Origin: Chitinophaga arvensicola
Lineage (GTDB): Bacteria > Bacteroidota > Bacteroidia > Chitinophagales > Chitinophagaceae
NCBI RefSeq assembly: GCF_900110835.1
Contig: NZ_FOJG01000002.1
Coordinates: forward strand, 3,488,698 to 3,552,697
DNA: 64,000 bases
Direction: 5' to 3'
The notes under the pieces were generated by a model. That model was not told the origin of the DNA. It saw only the letters and a program-made list of their open reading frames with translations, and did no database searches. Positions within the stretch are counted from its first letter, which is position 1, and each line of letters starts with the position of its first letter. The translations under genes were made by a program, and so were the position numbers. Below are positions 41,295-50,250 of this stretch, piece by piece.

Positions 41295-42389
41295 CTACAC
41301 TGCTTCCACTTGTGTAACTGCTGCAATCTGCGGCACCAGTACAGGCCTCTCTTCCACTACCTCCACCTCATCACCTACCACCGGGCCGTTATGCGCCAAC
41401 TCACTGCCTTCTTTCTTCGATTTGAAAATAGGCCAGAGCAATTGTGCATACCACTCTTCTTCCTTGTAGTGTTTTAATCCATAGGCACTCGGATACTGGC
41501 GTGTAATGATGCCTGTTCCGAAAATAAGATCCCAGATAAAAAACATGTTACCAAAATTGCCTTTGTAATTACCGATACCATCATCCGTAGTATCTGCGTG
41601 ATGCGCATGATGTGTAGCCGGCGTGGATATCAGCCGCTCCATGACCCAGCCTACCGGATTCAGCCAGCGGATGGTGTAAAATGGTTTATCCCATTTGATA
41701 CTGGAATGCGCCGCTGTGGTAATCAGGGATTTGATACCTCCTACAAAAAGCGCCGGATAACCCAGTCCCATATACGTGAGTGCCACCGTGAGGTAGATCT
41801 GCGAAAAAAAGGCCGTATAAATGATATTCTGACGGCTTGTCATCGCCATACCCATGTACGGAGCAGAATGATGCGTACGGTGAAAACGCCAGAGCAGCGG
41901 CAACTGATGATGCAACCGGTGATACCAGTACTGTGTAAGATCATCGGCCACTGCCATGATCGCAAAGCCCCACCAGAAAGGTACCCAGGCAAAAATATTT
42001 TTGGCATCCGGTAAAATGAAGGGGAGCAACTGCAAACCGAAATAAGCAATCATCGGCCGTAATACAATCCGTGGAAGAATAAAGCAAACAATATCAAGTG
42101 TACGCTCATTCTTTGTCCACTTATTTTCGTATAGCCCTACTGAAAATTCAATCACACCTACTACCAGCATAATAGCCGGTAAACCCCATGTTTTCAGGTT
42201 GTCAAATATGGCTTCAAGAAATGCCGGGGCCTTAAAAGAAAGATGCTCCGTGGTAGCCGTGAGCCAGGGTTTGCTGCCGGTGATATAAAACGACAGAAAC
42301 ATCAGCCCGATGGGCAATACATATAACAGCAGACTAATCAGGGAATCTTTCAGAATTACCTCTGTCTGCGTTTTCGCTGTTGTAGTCAT
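41295..42389 (-). CDS. Sterol desaturase/fatty-acid hydroxylase superfamily protein
   Basis: A 364-residue membrane di-iron protein. The His boxes are visible as HRLHH and HRTHH in the middle (about 158-175) and HHAHH near 265, between hydrophobic helices (about 14-32, 68-86, 130-148). Members hydroxylate or desaturate sterols, fatty acids or ether lipids at the membrane. It is the last gene of the sulfatase operon, 11 bp after a 42-residue membrane protein, which suggests that the imported sulfated molecule, or the bacterium's own lipid, is the hydroxylation target. The exact substrate cannot be told. Confidence 0.88.
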   Translation of the reverse strand: MTTTAKTQTEVILKDSLISLLLYVLPIGLMFLSFYITGSKPWLTATTEHLSFKAPAFLEAIFDNLKTWGLPAIMLVVGVIEFSVGLYENKWTKNERTLDIVCFILPRIVLRPMIAYFGLQLLPFILPDAKNIFAWVPFWWGFAIMAVADDLTQYWYHRLHHQLPLLWRFHRTHHSAPYMGMAMTSRQNIIYTAFFSQIYLTVALTYMGLGYPALFVGGIKSLITTAAHSSIKWDKPFYTIRWLNPVGWVMERLISTPATHHAHHADTTDDGIGNYKGNFGNMFFIWDLIFGTGIITRQYPSAYGLKHYKEEEWYAQLLWPIFKSKKEGSELAHNGPVVGDEVEVVEERPVLVPQIAAVTQVEAV

Positions 42390-42400
42390 AATAAAATATT

Positions 42401-42529
42401 TTAGTGATGCTGATTAAATAAAAAATGGATCAACCATATACTACCGGCAATAATCACCAGCGGTATGAGGAATATCAGTATGCCAATGGCTATTTTTTTT
42501 ATCAGTAAAACAAGATCGGCTAAAGTCAT
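42401..42529 (-). CDS. 42-residue single-span membrane protein in the sulfatase operon
   Basis: A short ORF whose ATG overlaps the sulfatase TGA (ATGA, 42526-42529) and whose stop lies 11 bp before the hydroxylase start. The product begins MTLADLVLLIKK, continues with one strongly hydrophobic span of about 20 residues (13-35) and ends IHFLFNQHH. Four-base stop-start overlap, matching strand and a full membrane helix support a real, translationally coupled gene. It could anchor or assist the hydroxylase or sulfatase. A run of eight T at 42492-42499 lies within it. I know no family for it. Confidence 0.7.
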   Translation of the reverse strand: MTLADLVLLIKKIAIGILIFLIPLVIIAGSIWLIHFLFNQHH

Positions 42530-44856
42530 AAAGAAGGATTTTGTGATGGATGTATAATTTCTACCTGATGAAGTTTACCGGTAAAGTTGTAGGGAGATCT
42601 GTACAGCGGAGATACAGCAGATCCCTGATCCCTTCCCACATCCAGCCCTTCGTCGTAGGGACTGATCGTAGCATCTGCTTTGGTAATCGCTCTCTCTGCC
42701 ACCTTTTCATCGTTGATATACAACGCCTCTGTACCGGCAGGATCCGTGAGTCGCTGCGCAGGTGCATATTTCAGTTCATAGCGAAGTACCACGTTCCCTG
42801 ATGGTAATGCTTTTGTGGAGGTTAGGTCCGTGAACTTTCCGTTGTTATTATGTACTGCTTTTAGTTTTCCATCCTGCACAAAAAAAGTAAATCCGGAGAA
42901 ACGACCACCCACACTGAGTAATACGCCTTCATTCTTTGCGTCTGTCAGTTCCACGTCTGCCTTGATGATAAATGACTGCTCTGAAAGAAAAGGGGCAGAG
43001 CGTGTAGGCACCTGCGTGATACCGGGGTACAACACTGCAGTAGCGCGGCTATCGAGCGGTCCACGGGTAAGTATAGCGGGTGTAAGGCGGGTTGTATCTC
43101 CCAGTAACGGGTATACTTTATATTTCCATGCCTCTGTATCAAAGAGTTGTTGCAGCTCTTTCAGTTTAGCAGGATTACTTGCCGCCAGATCATGCTGCTC
43201 ATTAAAATCTACGTTCAGGTTGTATAACTCCCATGTATCTGTGGTGAAAGGTGTTCCACGTTTGTGACTCACAGCAGCTTTCCATCCATCTTTATACACG
43301 GAACGGCTACCCGCAATTTCATAGTACTGCACATGATGCCTGCCCGGTACGGTAGCGTTACTAATGGTATAGGCCAGGCTCACTCCTTCCAGTGAATCCT
43401 GCGGATAACCATTAATAACTTTGGGGATCTTTAATCCGGCTATATCCAGTACCGTTGGCGTCACGCTGTTTACATGCGAATACTGCGTACGGATGCCTCC
43501 TTTTTTGATCAGCTTCGGATAAAACAATACCAGCGGATTGCGGGTACCGCCTTCGCTATTGGCATCCTGTTTCAGGTAACGGAAAGGCGTATTAGCCGCC
43601 TGTGCCCAGCCTACAGGATAATTAGGCCCAGACTCCGGACTGCCGATCTTATCGTACAGGCTGTCGATTTCTTTGATCCGGCTATCATAATTTTCGGCAA
43701 ACAAACTACCATCGATATATTCATTGATACCATGTACATGACCACTCAAACCGCCTTCTTTGCTGGCGCCGTTATCGCCGATGATAAGTACAATCAGCGT
43801 ATTATCCAGCTGCTTGGTATCCCGCAGGTAATTAACCAACCGCCCTACGTCATAATCTGTATGAGACAAAAATCCGGCGTATACTTCAAAGAAACGGGCA
43901 AATACTTTTTGTTCAGTCGCGGAAAGAGATGCCCATGGCTTCACACCGGGATTACGCGGTGGCAGCGTTACATCTGACGGAACCAGTCCCAGTGCTTTTT
44001 GCCGCGCCAATACCTGCTCCCGGTAAACATCCCAGCCCGCATCAAATTTACCTTTGTACTGATCAATCCATTTTTTATCTACCTGGTGCGGACCATGCGT
44101 AGCTCCGGGTGTAAAGTACAGGAAGAAAGGCTTGTCCGGCGCTGCAGAATGCTGCCCTGCGATATAGGAAATGGCTTTATCTACCAGCACCGTAGTGAGG
44201 TGCTTTCCCTGCAGATCCGGCTCTACCTTGACCGTATTTTCCCAGAGTGCCGGCGTATATTGATCTGTCTCCCCTGCCATAAAACCAAAGAAGGAATCAA
44301 ATCCACGTCCGGTAGGCCATCGGTTGAAAGGCCCTGCCGGCGTAAGATCCGGACTTGGCGTTACATGCCATTTACCAACAGCGTAGGTATTATAACCATC
44401 TTCTCTCAATATTTCTGCAATAGTGCCTTTTTCAAAAGGCATGTAACCATTGTGTCCCGGTATATTCACCGCTGCGTCAATCACAGTAGGCACGTTCACC
44501 GAATGATGATTGCGACCTGTCAGCAAAGAGGCACGGGTAGGCGAACAGATGGCAGTGGTATGAAAATTCGTATATCGTAAACCGTTATTCGCCAGGCTGT
44601 CAAAGACCGGTGTTTGTACCAATCCACCAAAAGCGCTGCTGGCGCCCCATCCTACATCATCCAGCATAATGTAGATGATATTGGGAGCGCCCGCTGGGGC
44701 AACAGGATTAAAGGGCGCCGGGGTAACAACGGTTTGTGAGAGCGTAGTACCAATTTTGCCACCACTGCTATGCTGTGGGCTATACTGTGCATATGCACCG
44801 GATGCTATACTCAGCATCAATATGATAGACGGTCTGGAAACGTAGGATAATTTCAT
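42526..44856 (-). CDS. Arylsulfatase (alkaline-phosphatase fold, S1_4-like)
   Basis: A 776-residue exported sulfatase. The metal-binding LDD (65-67), the active-site C104-S-P-T-R-A-S-L-L-T-G-R motif, GKWH at 161-164, GPFNRWPTGRGFDSFFGF and GDNGAS are all present. Cys104 must be converted to formylglycine by a maturase encoded elsewhere. About 140 extra residues at the C-terminus form a beta-sandwich-like domain (about 640-776), as in long AtsA-type arylsulfatases. It hydrolyses sulfate esters in the periplasm. It follows the SusC/SusD pair and precedes the small membrane protein and the hydroxylase. Confidence 0.93.
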   Translation of the reverse strand: MKLSYVSRPSIILMLSIASGAYAQYSPQHSSGGKIGTTLSQTVVTPAPFNPVAPAGAPNIIYIMLDDVGWGASSAFGGLVQTPVFDSLANNGLRYTNFHTTAICSPTRASLLTGRNHHSVNVPTVIDAAVNIPGHNGYMPFEKGTIAEILREDGYNTYAVGKWHVTPSPDLTPAGPFNRWPTGRGFDSFFGFMAGETDQYTPALWENTVKVEPDLQGKHLTTVLVDKAISYIAGQHSAAPDKPFFLYFTPGATHGPHQVDKKWIDQYKGKFDAGWDVYREQVLARQKALGLVPSDVTLPPRNPGVKPWASLSATEQKVFARFFEVYAGFLSHTDYDVGRLVNYLRDTKQLDNTLIVLIIGDNGASKEGGLSGHVHGINEYIDGSLFAENYDSRIKEIDSLYDKIGSPESGPNYPVGWAQAANTPFRYLKQDANSEGGTRNPLVLFYPKLIKKGGIRTQYSHVNSVTPTVLDIAGLKIPKVINGYPQDSLEGVSLAYTISNATVPGRHHVQYYEIAGSRSVYKDGWKAAVSHKRGTPFTTDTWELYNLNVDFNEQHDLAASNPAKLKELQQLFDTEAWKYKVYPLLGDTTRLTPAILTRGPLDSRATAVLYPGITQVPTRSAPFLSEQSFIIKADVELTDAKNEGVLLSVGGRFSGFTFFVQDGKLKAVHNNNGKFTDLTSTKALPSGNVVLRYELKYAPAQRLTDPAGTEALYINDEKVAERAITKADATISPYDEGLDVGRDQGSAVSPLYRSPYNFTGKLHQVEIIHPSQNPSL

Positions 44857-44883: not shown

Positions 44884-46377
44884 TTATTTATCCCACCATA
44901 AAGCGGGTGTCTGATAGCCCGATCCTGCCGGGGTATTTTTGTTCAATGCCTGTTCATTCTGCGGATAAGGAATCCTTCTGGGTATCTGCCCGTTCGGATT
45001 GGCCACACTGGTAGCATTTTTAGCCAATGGCAATGCCGGATAACCGGTGCGCCGGTAATCCGCCCAGGCTTCCGGTTGCAGGAACAAGGCAATATATTTC
45101 TGGGTGATAATCGTGCTCAGATCACTGGTAGCCACACCGCTGAGTGTAGTCTTTGCCGTTATATATGCCAGTTGCTTTTCCGGTGTGGCATACGGATCTG
45201 CATTATTACTGACCACCCGCTGAAACGAAGCACGGATGGCAGCCTCGAACGATGTTTTCACCAAAGGATCTGCCGGATTTATTCTCCATCTCGCTTCAGC
45301 TTCCAGGAACTTTGCTTCCGCAAAACTGCTGATCACCACCGGGGAAGTGGCCGTACCATAATAGGAGCCTATCACAGAAAATGCGCCCGGCACACCAGGC
45401 GCGCTGCCCCGGTAGGTATTACTGCCCACCGGCGAAGGCGTGGCAAAATAAGCCCGGCGCGGATCTACCAATAATCCTTCCGGTTTGGTAGGAACATCTG
45501 TTACCTCGTTTCCGTTCAACAGGTTCACAAAAGAAGCACCCAATCCTATCCATCCCGGTCTGTTGGTATTCTGCTGGTAGAAAGGATTCGCATTGGTAGC
45601 AGAAGAACCAAATACCACCAGGGCATCTGCGGAATTATCTGCTATTCCCCGGTAGCGCGTGCCGTCGTATAGCGCCGCCAATACCTGTTGTGCTGCTTCG
45701 GTACCTTTTATTTTTGTGAGATGGATAGCATACCTGGCCTTCAACGTATAGGCGAGCGATTTCCAGCGTTCCGTGTTACCGCCATAGATCACATCATCTG
45801 TGGCAGGCAATGCGCCCTGGTTACTGTTCGCCGGTAGTGACAGCTCTATAAGGGCAGAGTCCAGCTGCTCCTGCAATGATTTATAGATATCTTCCTGCTT
45901 GTCGTAGGCCGGATTGGTAATGTTGTTGCCATACAGCGATTCCCTGTAAGGAATATCTCCGAACAGATCTGTTAAAGTGCCATACGTGTATACGCTCAGC
46001 ACGCGCGCAATACCACTGTAATAGGGCAATTTCTTTTGGGCGGCGGCTGTTTTCACGATTTTCAGCTCATCCAGTACATCTCCGTAAAACCCTCTCCAGG
46101 TCTGATCAAAATACTGGATAGAGGAAGCATAGTTATCAAAGGAAGCCGCATCGCCATTGGCACCGGATGCCTGCTGGATATAGATATTGGCAATCAACCC
46201 GGCATTCACGCCCAGGTTGAATCCAAGTGCTACCTCTGCGCCGGTTAACACGGCACTGACGGAGACCTCCGTAGAGGCGTTGGGGTTAACGTTGGTGTCC
46301 TGCAGCGAGCAGGATGCCGGAATAACCAGCATAAAGGCAACGAATAAACGAACGATATTGTGGGAATATATTTTCAT
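44884..46377 (-). CDS. SusD/RagB-like_2 lipoprotein (locus 5)
   Basis: A 497-residue lipoprotein (lipobox IPASC, Cys23) of the SusD-like_2 type: NVNPNASTEVS near the start, ARVLSVYTYGTLTDLFGDIPY, WKSLAYTLKARYAIHL, FLEAEARWRI and KYIALFLQPEAWADYRRTGYPALP. It pairs with the SusC 20 bp upstream and captures the sulfated substrate at the surface. It is the same subfamily as the protein at 14949-16505. Confidence 0.93.
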   Translation of the reverse strand: MKIYSHNIVRLFVAFMLVIPASCSLQDTNVNPNASTEVSVSAVLTGAEVALGFNLGVNAGLIANIYIQQASGANGDAASFDNYASSIQYFDQTWRGFYGDVLDELKIVKTAAAQKKLPYYSGIARVLSVYTYGTLTDLFGDIPYRESLYGNNITNPAYDKQEDIYKSLQEQLDSALIELSLPANSNQGALPATDDVIYGGNTERWKSLAYTLKARYAIHLTKIKGTEAAQQVLAALYDGTRYRGIADNSADALVVFGSSATNANPFYQQNTNRPGWIGLGASFVNLLNGNEVTDVPTKPEGLLVDPRRAYFATPSPVGSNTYRGSAPGVPGAFSVIGSYYGTATSPVVISSFAEAKFLEAEARWRINPADPLVKTSFEAAIRASFQRVVSNNADPYATPEKQLAYITAKTTLSGVATSDLSTIITQKYIALFLQPEAWADYRRTGYPALPLAKNATSVANPNGQIPRRIPYPQNEQALNKNTPAGSGYQTPALWWDK

Positions 46378-46397: not shown

Positions 46398-49300
46398 TTA
46401 AAAAGAAACATTCAATGCCACGCCATAACTTTTTGTACTGGGCGTTGTCCAGAAATCTATACCGGCGGCATTCGACAATCCGTTGCGACTGCCCAGATCC
46501 GGATCACTGCCGGAGTAATTGGTAGACAACAGGAAGTTTCTGGCGGTCAGCGTTACACTTGCTGCTGCAATATGGGCGGGCTTCAATAACTGCTGAGGCA
46601 GTGCATAGGTAAAGTTGACATCCTTCAATTTCAACCAGTAAAGATCATGCTCTACATAAAGGCCCTGTATATTGAATGTATTCCGGTACCAGGCCTGTGA
46701 CAATACGGCTTCAATGTTATTAGGCTCTCCTTTGGACGCCGTAACGCCATCAAAAACAGTTTTAGTACCCCTTGTTACCGTCGACGCATCTACGCCGTTA
46801 AATACCATCTGCAAACGCGGCGCATTGAAGAGATCAAATCCAAAACGGCCATCCAGTAAAAACGAAAAAGTAAAGGGGCCGTATCTGAGTTCATTTCTCA
46901 AACCAACATTGAAATCAGGATTGGGATCTCCTATTTTTGTAAACGTGGTATTCACTAACGGATAGCCGTAACTCGCACTGGCGGGGTTGTCATCTATAAC
47001 AGGTTTACCCGCCGCATTGCGTTTTACATCGGTGCCATAAAACACGCCATAGGGCTGCCCTGCCTGCCCACGGGCCTCCATCCAGATACCACCCAGACTC
47101 ACACTACTGATATTGTCAGTGATATAGTTGACCCGGCTGATATTTTTATTAAACAAGGCGGTGGCCGTCCAGGAAAAACTACGATGACTGACAATGCGCT
47201 GTTGCAAACTGGCTTCAATACCCTTGTTAACAATATTGCCGGCATTAGTCAGCGTATAGGCGGCGCCGGTAGAATAAGGCAGCGTTACCGGGATGATCTG
47301 GTCCTTGCTGCTGTTGTAATAGTAAACCGCTTCCAGTTGCGTTTTATCCCGGAAGAAATGCAGATCCAGACCAGCTTCCCAGGTGCTGATACGTTCCGGT
47401 TTCAGGTTCGGATTACCGATAGTAGCGCTGTAGCTAAGTCCCTGTTTACCGTTAAAAGGAAAGTTGATGCCGCTCTGTATCCAGCCACCACTGGTGGTAG
47501 GCACGTAATAAGTATCCAGCGAATACGGATCTGCATCATTGCCCACTTGTGCATAGGTAGCGCGGATCTTACCAAAGTTCAGGATGCGGTTATTCCAGTG
47601 AAGGGCATCCGTAAAGATGAAACTGGTGCTGGCAGACGGATAGAAGAAAGCATTCTTCCCTTTTGCCAGCGTGGAAGTCCACTCGTTTCTACCGGTCAGT
47701 TCTAAGTATAGCCATTTCCGGTAGTCAAGTTTTATATCTGCATAACCGGCCACCAGCTTTTTGCGGATTGTCTGGTTAAAGGTTTGTGTGGAAGATGCGT
47801 TGGAGATATTAAAGTTGCCAGGGATGGTTAAACCATCGCCACGGGTGTTGACCTGGTTTTTCCAGGAATTATAGTAGTTGTATCCCGCTACCACGGTAAG
47901 GTTCAGGTCGGAACTGAGTTTATGGTCTGCTACCAGTAACACATCCAGGTTGTTATCTCTTCTCGCATAATTCACATCATTGATGGTACCCGTTGCTACG
48001 CCAGAGGTACCCCGACTAAAAGCGCCTTTCCGGATATCGGTATAGGAATCAATACCATAGCGTACGGTGGCCTTTAACCAGGAGGTAATATCCAAGTCTG
48101 CTTCTGCAAAAGTGATAAAGCGGTTCAGTTCATCGGTTTGCGGATTCATATTGAGGGACCAGTATGGATTATCCCATCCGATACCGTTGGCATAAGAACG
48201 ACTATCCCCCCAGGGCTTGTTCGTGGTGGGTGGCAGTTTATAAGACTCCGGATGTTCCCACGGTTTCGTATAGCCATTAGTGATATCAAAGTTGGCCGGT
48301 GAATTAATCAGGGCTCTTACTACGTTGGTATTAAAGCCGCCCATCAGCGCCCGGTTTCCCGCGCCATCCTTGATGTAATTGACGCCACCGGATACTTTCA
48401 GCCGTTCGTTCACTTTAAAATCGCCGTTAAAGCGGAAGGTGTGCCGGAAGAAATCTGTAGTCGGAATAATACCGGTCTGCTTCAGATTTCCATAAGAGAA
48501 ATAATAACCAGCATTACCGGTATTGCCATAAAAACTGATATTCTGATCATTCGTATAGCCGTTTACAAAAAACTGCCCGATATTATCATACCTGTTCACC
48601 GGAATACCATTGGAGGCCGGATCACTTTTCCCTACAATAGTGCCGTTCTTATCAAAATTGCTTTGAATAGCGCTATAGGTCAGTGTATCCAGCAGCGCGC
48701 CCCAGTTTTCATCGGAGCCTGTAGTGCCAGGCTTTACATATTGTCCGCCGATACCATTTGAAAAAGTGGTTTGCCGGGGTTGCACGCGGCGGTTTATTTT
48801 GTCTACCGTAAACGAGCCGCTATAGCTTACACCAAAAGATTTATCCGTGAGTGAACTCCCTCTTTTGGTATTGATCACCACCGCGCCGTTGGAAGCGCGG
48901 ATACCATACAATGCAGCGGCTGCCGGGCCTTTCAGCACCGTGATACTGGCAATATCTGCACTGTTGATATCGATAGCCCTGTTAGAAGGCGTGGCCAGCG
49001 ACACACTGTTTGAAATCGGGAGAATATCCTGGATAGAATTATCTACCGGTACCCCATCCAGGATAAATAAGGGGGCATTATTTCCCAGCAGGGAGCTGTT
49101 TCCCCTAATTTTAATGGTAGATGATCCACCGGGAGAACCACCGGAATTATTGATCTGTACGCCGGCGACCTTGCCGCTGAGCGCGGCCACAATGTTGGGT
49201 TCGCGGCTGTCTTTCAGCGCAGCGGCTTTTACTTCACCCACGCTGTAGCCGAGCGAGCGGGTAGAACTACGTATACCCACTGCCGTTACTACCACTTCAG

Positions 49301-49619
49301 AAAGTGCCTGCTGCTGTTCCAGCTTCACTACTTTATTCAGATCATTCTTTGTAATAAATATTTCCTGCGACTGGTAGCCGATGAAAGTAACAATGATGGT
49401 TTGTGGTAATTGCGTAAGACTCAACTGGTAAGTTCCGGTAGCATCAGCCAGGGTACCGGCTTTTCCGCCTTTCAGGCGTACGGATGCGCCGGGCAATGCT
49501 TCCTGTGTTTTACTATCTACTACTTTTCCTTTTAATAACACAGGGGCCTGTGAATAAGTACTGCCGGCAAAGGAAAATAAAGCAGCATATAATACAGTAC
49601 TTCGTAAAAAATTAAACAT
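46398..49619 (-). CDS. SusC-family TonB-linked receptor (locus 5, sulfatase operon)
   Basis: A receptor of 1073 residues from ATG 49619, where the signal peptide FNFLRSTVLYAALFSFAGSTYSQ, in pieces, is clean. It has a carboxypeptidase-D-like domain (LLKGKVVDSKTQEALPGA), linker VVVTAVGIRSSTRSLGYSV, plug VLKGPAAAALYGIRASNGA and C-terminal YGVALNVSF. The frame also opens at ATG 49685, which lies 4 nt after the stop of a leader ORF and could be used by coupling; the true start needs mapping. No STN domain and no adjacent regulator gene: control probably lies in the 330-nt leader and the operator-like repeat at its promoter. Confidence 0.92.
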   Translation of the reverse strand: MFNFLRSTVLYAALFSFAGSTYSQAPVLLKGKVVDSKTQEALPGASVRLKGGKAGTLADATGTYQLSLTQLPQTIIVTFIGYQSQEIFITKNDLNKVVKLEQQQALSEVVVTAVGIRSSTRSLGYSVGEVKAAALKDSREPNIVAALSGKVAGVQINNSGGSPGGSSTIKIRGNSSLLGNNAPLFILDGVPVDNSIQDILPISNSVSLATPSNRAIDINSADIASITVLKGPAAAALYGIRASNGAVVINTKRGSSLTDKSFGVSYSGSFTVDKINRRVQPRQTTFSNGIGGQYVKPGTTGSDENWGALLDTLTYSAIQSNFDKNGTIVGKSDPASNGIPVNRYDNIGQFFVNGYTNDQNISFYGNTGNAGYYFSYGNLKQTGIIPTTDFFRHTFRFNGDFKVNERLKVSGGVNYIKDGAGNRALMGGFNTNVVRALINSPANFDITNGYTKPWEHPESYKLPPTTNKPWGDSRSYANGIGWDNPYWSLNMNPQTDELNRFITFAEADLDITSWLKATVRYGIDSYTDIRKGAFSRGTSGVATGTINDVNYARRDNNLDVLLVADHKLSSDLNLTVVAGYNYYNSWKNQVNTRGDGLTIPGNFNISNASSTQTFNQTIRKKLVAGYADIKLDYRKWLYLELTGRNEWTSTLAKGKNAFFYPSASTSFIFTDALHWNNRILNFGKIRATYAQVGNDADPYSLDTYYVPTTSGGWIQSGINFPFNGKQGLSYSATIGNPNLKPERISTWEAGLDLHFFRDKTQLEAVYYYNSSKDQIIPVTLPYSTGAAYTLTNAGNIVNKGIEASLQQRIVSHRSFSWTATALFNKNISRVNYITDNISSVSLGGIWMEARGQAGQPYGVFYGTDVKRNAAGKPVIDDNPASASYGYPLVNTTFTKIGDPNPDFNVGLRNELRYGPFTFSFLLDGRFGFDLFNAPRLQMVFNGVDASTVTRGTKTVFDGVTASKGEPNNIEAVLSQAWYRNTFNIQGLYVEHDLYWLKLKDVNFTYALPQQLLKPAHIAAASVTLTARNFLLSTNYSGSDPDLGSRNGLSNAAGIDFWTTPSTKSYGVALNVSF

Positions 49620-49950
49620 ACAAAGGGGATTAGAAATTGGTGAGATAAGACAATAAACGGCCATGATGATCGCTTTACGCGTCATGCAATTAACCGGATG
49701 TATTCATCTGTAGATTCCTGGAAATGCCTAACAGCAACAACAACAGCTTTCGGCTGTAGTGAGGCATGCACGCGATGTTCTGTGATGTCTATTGTTGTAC
49801 AATAGCTGATTCATGGTTGAAAAATTTATCGAATGGTTACGCGGGTCACCTCTGTGAGGCAACTTCAATAAAGAAAATTATCTGGTTTGCTTTGTATGGT
49901 GGGGAGACAAAGACTTTGGTTGTTGTAAACTTTATTAGTCTACTATAATT
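49620..49950 (-). promoter_or_regulatory. Long structured 5' leader of the sulfatase operon
   Basis: From the predicted start site near 49950 to susC there are about 330 nt. In transcript order it holds a hairpin CTATTGT-ACA-ACAATAG (49789-49805), the leader ORF 49690-49767 whose AUGCCU start pairs with a later AGGCAU, and an inner ACAGC/GCTGT stem. I could not assign it to a known riboswitch class. Confidence 0.55.
49690..49767 (-). CDS. Candidate 25-residue leader peptide with six consecutive Leu codons
   Basis: An ATG-started ORF of 25 codons: MPHYSRK, then six leucines (residues 8-13, codons CTG TTG TTG TTG CTG TTA), then GISRNLQ and a short polar tail. The start codon region pairs with sequence inside the ORF, and the stop codon is 4 nt before an in-frame ATG of susC (49685). 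A homocodon run within alternative hairpins is the classic form of a translation-sensing attenuator. Whether it is conserved elsewhere is untested. Confidence 0.5.
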   Translation of the reverse strand: MPHYSRKLLLLLLGISRNLQMNTSG

Positions 49951-49985
49951 GTAGACAAATATACAAAGGCTTTTGTAAAACACAA
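49938..49985 (-). promoter_or_regulatory. Promoter and operator-like repeat of the sulfatase operon
   Basis: On the minus strand TTG (complement of 49983-49985), 19 nt, and TATATTTG (complement of 49956-49963), an exact consensus. Immediately downstream, over the expected start site, is the inverted repeat GTCTAC-N7-GTAGAC (49938-49956), which could bind a repressor. Confidence 0.65.
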
Positions 49986-50035
49986 GTAGGGGAAGAAAAA
50001 AAATATCTGCTTCATGGATTGTTAACATAGGGAGC

Positions 50036-50068
50036 AAAAAAAAACGCTTCACATATGTGAAGCGTTTT
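50036..50068 (-). terminator. Terminator of the second tRNA-Gln
   Basis: A perfect 28-bp palindrome (50041-50068, centre ACATATGT) followed on the minus strand by a run of T (complement of 50036-50044), 8 bp after the tRNA. Confidence 0.88.
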
Positions 50069-50075
50069 GTAGTAG

Positions 50076-50146
50076 TTGCCCAACCAGGATTCGAACCTAG
50101 ACAAACAGAACCAAAATCTGTCGTACTACCATTATACTATTGGGCA
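50076..50146 (-). tRNA. tRNA-Gln (anticodon TTG), copy 2
   Basis: A 71-nt cloverleaf identical to the copy at 6364-6434 except that the acceptor stem is TGCCCAA/TTGGGCA, fully Watson-Crick. Anticodon loop TTTTGGT, T-loop GGTTCGAATCC. CCA is not encoded. Confidence 0.95.
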
Positions 50147-50168
50147 ATACCCTTGTTGTTTGGGATGG

Positions 50169-50197
50169 CAAAAGTATAACTTTTTTTATTTCTGCAA
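50169..50197 (-). promoter_or_regulatory. Promoter of the second tRNA-Gln
   Basis: On the minus strand TTG (complement of 50195-50197), 18 nt, then TACTTTTG (complement of 50169-50176), ending 22 nt before the tRNA 5' end. Confidence 0.7.
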
Positions 50198-50250
50198 AAA
50201 AAACTTGCCAGATTTTTAAAATATCCTTTGAAATCCTTTACAGCAAAGAC

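Follow-up and report, generated by a model that had tools for sequence, protein, structure and literature searches.

Leader ORFs whose translation senses an amino acid through ribosome stalling are classical regulatory elements. For cysteine, the leaders with codon runs that we have found in the literature come from Actinobacteria, together with a two-Cys leader of cysS in Rhodobacterales. Mycobacterial leaders with consecutive Cys codons close to the stop codon have been described that lack accompanying terminators, and an involvement of Rho was suggested (PMC1262725, in the part available). Cysteine-dependent attenuation by the mycobacterial polycysteine uORFs was reported by Canestrari 2020, as cited in the accessible part of PMC9031893, and the same uORFs are cited in those of PMC9094748 and PMC13236596. 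The cysS leader of Rhodobacterales, uORFC-8-2, carries tandem Cys codons and is predicted to act by ribosome-mediated attenuation (PMC8632094, in part). For the Bacteroidota, leader-like sORFs in long 5' UTRs are known from Bacteroides thetaiotaomicron (PMC7366714, in part), the available portion of that paper mentioning no cysteine leader, and among open-licence papers, judged by the titles and beginnings of abstracts listed, we found no Cys-run leader in this phylum, which is weak evidence of absence. In the present work, we describe a short ORF from the soil bacterium Chitinophaga arvensicola and a set of related loci for which the best explanation, with a probability of roughly 0.8, is a cysteine-responsive, ribosome-stalling leader that would control a sulfur-scavenging regulon.

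The window (the whole analysed stretch of 64,000 nucleotides) contains a leader ORF (uORF; 49728-49814, (-)) of 28 codons and a TAG stop, which is translated as MNQLLYNNRHHRTSRACLTTAESCCCCC. It ends in five Cys codons, TGT TGT TGT TGC TGT (49731-49745, (-)), which directly adjoin the stop codon and represent the proposed stall site. An earlier note on this DNA had drawn attention to a different frame, viz. an ATG ORF of 25 codons with six consecutive Leu codons (49690-49767, (-)), which it took for a translation-sensing leader. That ORF, translated as MPHYSRKLLLLLLGISRNLQMNTSG, is present and contains CTG TTG TTG TTG CTG TTA, and it is an out-of-frame reading of the Cys run: a shift by one base turns the six Leu codons into TGT TGT TGT TGC TGT TAG, which is the Cys run with its stop. 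In the 11 aligned leaders of the MNQ type from the genus, the Cys ORF is intact in all 11, with four to seven Cys codons, TGT and TGC mixed, directly before TAA or TAG, whereas the Leu frame has an ATG ahead of the run in one, the window's genome alone. The Cys ORF exceeds chance expectation and the Leu ORF shows no sign of doing so. The codon TGT is commoner in the leaders (168:63 relative to TGC) than in 35 long ORFs of the window (70:51; p 0.006), and a stronger contrast with the long ORFs downstream (19:62) was given no weight, as that set may include false ORFs. A comparison of the Cys-ORF peptide with NCBIfam returned 0 families at E up to 1.

The kind of element proposed earlier, a translation-sensing leader ahead of a TonB-receptor/sulfatase operon, is thus well supported, while its frame and its amino acid have to be replaced by those of the cysteine reading; that cysteine, unlike leucine, suits a sulfatase operon supports it as the residue sensed. 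Conservation of the leader peptide in related genomes, on which the earlier proposal had been made to depend, fails for the Leu frame (its ATG in 1/11) and holds for the Cys frame. The finer architecture of that proposal is peculiar to few leaders. The AUGCCU and AGGCAU motifs that were thought to pair at the start codon occur together in 1/11 leaders (AGGCAU without AUGCCU is also found in G351, and AUGCCU without AGGCAU in G023), and the ACAGC/GCTGT stem between them is likewise present in 1/11. The ATG in frame with susC that follows the Leu ORF does exist at 49685 and has a counterpart in 3/11 leaders, 42-43 nt past the Cys-ORF stop; the susC start that is common to all 11 lies 96-109 nt past this stop, at 49617-49619 in the window.

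The genes behind this leader comprise susC, encoding a TonB-dependent receptor (46398-49619 from the conserved start codon, (-); TIGR04056, 9.7e-169), a gene for a SusD-like lipoprotein (44884-46377, (-); PF12771, 1.1e-66), a sulfatase gene (42526-44856, (-); PF00884, 6.2e-61) and, as the last member of the conserved gene order, a gene for a fatty acid hydroxylase family protein (41295-42389, (-); PF04116, 6e-23), which is found in the same place in 15/15 operons of the genus. The susC and susD homologues are adjacent, as is characteristic of a SusCD nutrient-uptake locus. The upstream boundary (50041-50146, (-)) is formed by a tRNA gene (50076-50146, anticodon TTG by eye) and a terminator-like hairpin (50041-50068). 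The family names of the downstream genes suggest a role in sulfur supply, and a Cys-run leader appears to govern genes for outer-membrane import and desulfation.

The distribution of the leader was examined from the peptide and from the operon. A profile search of 79 genus genomes with a five-row peptide alignment produced nine strong hits (E no higher than 1.4e-5, the values being inflated for the five rows that built the alignment and not for the other four, G037, G019, G352 and G018). The nine peptides have the form M[ND]QLL[YHN]N, a freely varying middle, four to seven Cys residues and a stop, and the orthologous operon stands behind all nine, that of G037 lacking the sulfatase. When the first 340 residues of SusC were used as the query (E <= 1e-90), an orthologous SusC was found in 15 of the 79 genomes, and in all 15 a short ORF with a Cys-rich tail precedes the operon. 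At least three peptide types are represented, since beyond the nine there are two MNQ peptides, one MKRQ...CCCSCS-stop and three MKRHT...CSCCC-stop. In the three MKRHT operons one gene stands between the leader and susC (in G027 it is weakly PBP-like, with PF12849 below cut-off), and their sulfatase is only 23-24% identical to that of the window. The operons of G037, G351 and G023 (L116, L175, L176) have kept the leader, SusC, SusD and the hydroxylase and have no sulfatase; as the sulfatase is absent from 3 of 15 leader-bearing operons, the importer and the hydroxylase are the constant part. In other genera, the sulfatase operons of six genomes were examined, out of 28 non-own genomes that matched the sulfatase: a Cys-tailed short ORF precedes the sulfatase operon in five, several with unrelated N-termini, and none was found at that of G125. 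Matching leader peptides are also present in C. hostae (L181), C. polysaccharea (L207) and Chitinophaga sp. CB10 (L190).

These comparisons bear on whether the poly-Cys peptide itself might be the functional product, for instance by binding metal, haem or thiol reagents or by acting as a small peptide after secretion. The N-terminus M[ND]QLL, conserved with little variation in nine genomes, would agree with such a function, but the codons of this N-terminus also form a predicted hairpin, the middle of the peptide varies freely, the number of Cys residues ranges from 4 to 7, and orthologous operons are preceded by peptides with unrelated N-termini, so that we regard a role of the peptide itself as quite improbable.

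An alignment search of 244 family genomes gave matches in 125 genomes at E <= 1, the best non-own match having E 0.0027, and of 24 weaker peptide matches that were inspected one, L106 in G055, is a PhyH-type Cys leader behind an operator, the others looking like chance. The L106 leader (region of G055:C1:3558584) has an AACSCCC-stop end, and the weak match L063 reads MNQLLQNNRQQAMSNW before its stop. A search for related loci with the five-peptide alignment yielded 22 stretches, 0 of which were confirmed by tblastn. The own genome has 23 four-Cys matches including that of the window, and the other 22 were inspected as translations where a stop follows; two of its frames (L014 and L011) carry 10 and 8 terminal Cys codons before the stop and have no ATG in the translated stretch.

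The leader is preceded by a promoter (49937-49963, (-)) whose -7 box TATATTTG (49956-49963), which we assign by the Bacteroidota consensus TAnnTTTG, overlaps an inverted repeat GTCTAC-N7-GTAGAC (49938-49956). The earlier claim of a promoter ahead of the leader agrees with this box, which lies 189 nt ahead of the Leu-ORF ATG; a scan for sigma-70-type promoters found none at the leader. The repeat begins 142 nt before the uORF. The sequence TATATTTGTCTAC-N7-GTAGACT occurs at exactly three sites in the 8.3 Mb genome, each before a Cys-tailed uORF, and the same holds for the exact combination of -7 box and inverted repeat (3 in the own genome, every one ahead of a Cys-tailed uORF). At the second of these sites the peptide MNTDQ...SYCCC-stop precedes genes for a PhyH-family dioxygenase and a short-chain dehydrogenase, and at the third MKRHT...CYCSRC-stop is found about 0.86 kb before a TonB gene. 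Two further sites of this genome with one mismatch have no Cys leader, and the genes that follow them are SusC-like at the N-terminus (by eye). The exact operator is narrowly distributed, being present in 4/395 genomes of the class, including 3/9 sampled from the own family (own genome counted).

The inverted repeat probably binds a sulfur-gene regulator. Known sulfur regulators of the Rrf2 family include CymR, and the own genome encodes an Rrf2 protein (G000:C3:2468362-2468766) directly before genes of the PAPS-reductase family, its sulfate assimilation (cys) genes. At L216, an Rrf2 gene 54% identical to that of the own genome stands before the operator, and the gene after the operator resembles a cysteine desulfurase (by eye). 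The Rrf2 protein as the binder of the repeat is our guess from this gene neighbourhood. No Cys leader was found at the genome's own sulfate assimilation genes of the PAPS-reductase family. Some variants of the repeat were noted by eye: a degenerate GTCTAT-N7-ATAGGT near a TATTTTTG box is seen in the intergenic region between Rrf2 and sulfate assimilation genes (L322; G000:C3, about 2458000-2471000), and in the leaders of G259, G168, G211 and G247 (L165-L168) a variant repeat (AGTCCA/TGGACT-like, or the right half only) replaces GTCTAC/GTAGAC around the likely promoter. Williamsia is an actinobacterium, and two records with this title (L201 and L216) have a promoter of Bacteroidota type together with the operator; the genes of L216 look Bacteroidota-like (by eye), and the label may be wrong.

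Scanning named genomes for the operator gave at least 119 loci (80 listed by name), of which 115 listed loci were kept after two had been dropped because the bases around their operator were identical to those of another locus and two because of short flanks. We counted as a Cys-tailed leader any ATG ORF, 8-80 codons long and lying within 400 nt, in which three or more of the last eight codons encode Cys. Such a leader is found at 49/115 listed operator loci, compared with 3/115, and 2/115 and 1/115, in controls; the 49 include weak cases (L234, L285), and the near misses L255 and L222 are uncounted. When the listed loci were clustered by sequence, as they are not independent, 19/53 clusters have a Cys leader, and after dropping the six loci of the window type from which the pattern was derived, it remains at 43/109 listed loci. 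Cys is the last residue in 41/49 listed leaders and is at most one residue from the end in 46/49. Among the 115 listed loci no other tail residue is similarly enriched, Leu tails being found at 15, versus 10 and 8 in controls. In 48 listed loci with at least three consecutive TGY codons, an upstream ATG and a stop within two codons accompany the run in the Cys, the other and the Leu frame at a ratio of 33:0:3. Leucine sensing by the six-Leu ORF, or its coupling to susC, has therefore been rejected on both conservation and frame, and although the ORF and its six Leu codons exist in the window, we consider this reading barely credible.

The same data bear on whether the (UGU)n tract could be a non-coding RNA or DNA motif, e.g. 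a protein-binding site or a repeat tract. TGTTGTTG is indeed the most enriched 8-mer after the operator (34/49 listed leader loci versus 0 upstream), as would be expected of such a motif. However, an ATG and a near stop are present in the Cys frame in 33/48 run-bearing listed loci (0 and 3 in the other frames), and many interrupted runs, such as CCSCCC and CYCSRC, break the repeat yet keep the Cys residues, which makes a non-coding motif very improbable. A further alternative is that the promoter operator alone regulates, the uORF being translated with a Cys tail that is no sensor. As 66/115 listed operator loci have no leader by our definition, the operator may act alone there; as a complete account, however, this would leave to be explained why the tail is specific for Cys and why such tails recur in unrelated leaders, and we see little likelihood in it. 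The related short frames before sulfur-linked genes suggest that cysteine supply is gauged through their translation.

The genes that follow the operators were called mechanically, and at five of the 115 listed loci no first gene was called. The first gene behind the 49 listed leaders is most often one with a TonB-receptor plug (15), PhyH (13), TonB_C (8) or fatty acid hydroxylase (3) domain. Behind the 61 listed leaderless operators it is plug in 25, TonB_C in 14, AhpC/TSA in 4, PF00266 (cysteine desulfurase-like) in 3 and sulfatase in 1, and further first genes lacking an evident sulfur link are also present. G027 has a single gene row of leader, PBP-like protein, SusC, SusD, sulfatase, hydroxylase and TonB, and G039 has such a row too, by similarity and eye; judging from these rows, the own genome would seem to have nearly this set of genes split over two units, with an operator and a Cys leader at each. 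At L297 an operator and Cys leader stand directly behind sulfhydrylase-like and homoserine acetyltransferase-like genes (by eye).

The leaders were also examined for RNA structures. In the window, a hairpin CTTTGT-CTCCCCACCAT-ACAAAG with a CCACCA-type loop (49890-49912, (-)) has the same stem in 11/11 leaders, and a hairpin GTTGCCTC/GAGGTGAC (49845-49863, (-)), 30 nt before the uORF, has 8 predicted pairs, 3 of them changed on both sides among the 11 sequences. RNAalifold analysis of the 11 window-type leaders placed hairpins before and inside the uORF and none between the uORF and susC; likewise, for 11 PhyH-type leaders, none was found between the uORF and the gene, and a GCGG/CCGC-type hairpin whose loop contains CCACC is present in 11/11. 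Hairpins with CCACCA/YCACC loops occur in 32/49 leader loci and 19/66 other listed loci, the corresponding numbers being 3 and 4 in upstream sequence and 3.4 and 3.35 after shuffling; overall, hairpins with CCACCA-type loops are found at 51/115 listed loci against about 7 upstream or shuffled, and their stem sequences differ. In 27 TonB-type leaders both strands of this stem carry changes, with as many as 11 changed sequences for a single pair, a figure that counts sequences and not events and is made up largely of groups of related rows. The TonB-type leaders have a second, conserved hairpin of about 100 nt behind the uORF region (L179:1148-1249, (-); G000:C2:3838184-3838285), with an apical UUGGUGG complementary to the CCACCA-type loop. 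As the pairs that would form such a loop kissing hardly vary, covariation neither supports nor refutes it. A model of the second hairpin matched 3/244 family genomes, all from the own genus, and did not match the window; Rfam gave no match to this hairpin at the loci examined. In the window region 49400-50200 only the upstream tRNA reaches the Rfam gathering score, with no riboswitch or T-box match, and 16 operator loci matched tRNA and 5_ureB_sRNA only.

Intrinsic terminators after the uORF are not enriched (4/49 listed loci versus 2.55 in shuffles), and in the window no terminator-like site was found between the uORF and susC; one such site lies inside the uORF (49743-49757), its stem being present in 1/11 relatives. 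The Cys run pairs with downstream sequence at a mean z of 0.10 relative to shuffles (49 listed loci) and with upstream sequence at a mean z of -0.42 (27 loci), i.e. no better than shuffles, and for this reason no conserved switch structure is shown. Since neither terminator enrichment nor pairing of the Cys run was found, a stalled ribosome would have to act otherwise, by shielding against Rho or by opening the downstream start. Rho-dependent attenuation, in which a ribosome at the uORF end would shield a Rho-loading site located between uORF and gene, as in the E. coli tna operon, is one form of this switch and not a rival to it. The terminal placement of the Cys run within the ORF and the lack of terminator enrichment agree with it, and it was likewise proposed for mycobacterial Cys leaders (PMC1262725, in the part available), but the 70 nt past the stop favour C over G only mildly (0.252 versus 0.197, mean of 49 listed loci), and we hold this form to be possible, though on the doubtful side.

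Under the cysteine-responsive leader mechanism, the translated uORF would end in its run of Cys codons. With plentiful Cys-tRNA, ribosomes would pass the run and terminate, and the long leader would hold down expression of the SusC-SusD-sulfatase-hydroxylase genes; under cysteine shortage, a ribosome would pause in the Cys run at the uORF end and expression of the operon would rise, its products probably importing sulfur esters and releasing sulfate. The switch itself would work through Rho or at the level of translation and not through an intrinsic terminator, and a second layer would come from the inverted repeat at the promoter, to which a sulfur-gene regulator probably binds. What the sequences show is the ORF with its conservation and frame, the Cys enrichment, the association with the operator-like repeat and the families of the downstream genes; we infer that the uORF is translated, that ribosomes stall on low cysteine, in which sense expression changes, that the genes serve sulfur supply, and the switch. 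A more far-reaching proposal, which we advance tentatively and at somewhat less than even odds, is a two-layer regulon of the Chitinophagaceae, in which the promoter-overlapping operator (probably for a regulator of Rrf2 type) and Cys uORFs that have arisen repeatedly, with unrelated N-termini, would gate SusCD importers, sulfatases, TonB proteins and dioxygenases, with a new CCACCA-hairpin RNA switch whose loop, in the TonB type, could kiss UUGGUGG across the uORF. With a Cys leader over import and desulfation genes, a nutrient-uptake locus of the Bacteroidota would follow the cysteine economy of the cell and not the polymer that is eaten. The combination of the operator with a Cys-tailed uORF is a sequence signature for operons that scavenge sulfur from an as yet unknown substrate, and the regulation is directly testable with simple reporters.

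Among known systems, Rrf2 regulators such as CymR are linked to the repeat, as a putative target, by gene neighbourhood only. A trp-type attenuator has an intrinsic terminator between the uORF and the first gene, for which no enrichment was seen in the present leaders. The Cys codons of uORFC-8-2 are a pair at positions 14-15, and that leader carries an intrinsic terminator (PMC8632094, in the part available), whereas in the window type 4-7 Cys codons close the ORF, and the present leaders show no terminator enrichment. The closest likeness is to the mycobacterial polycysteine uORFs, which, as far as the available parts of the sources describe them, share with the present leaders consecutive Cys codons at or near the stop of a short ORF and the lack of an obvious terminator; this likeness is one of layout, by description, and not of homology to a catalogued leader family (0 NCBIfam families). 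The mycobacterial uORFs are leaderless, whereas that of the window, which begins 142 nt after the operator start, probably is not. They also belong to another phylum, and the Cys leaders described here are tied to a promoter palindrome. Lastly, the mycobacterial uORFs precede cysteine-supply (cys biosynthesis) genes, in the available text, whereas the uORF of the window precedes SusCD and a sulfatase, and behind the Cys leaders in general there are genes for outer-membrane import, sulfatases, TonB and dioxygenases in place of those for cys biosynthesis.
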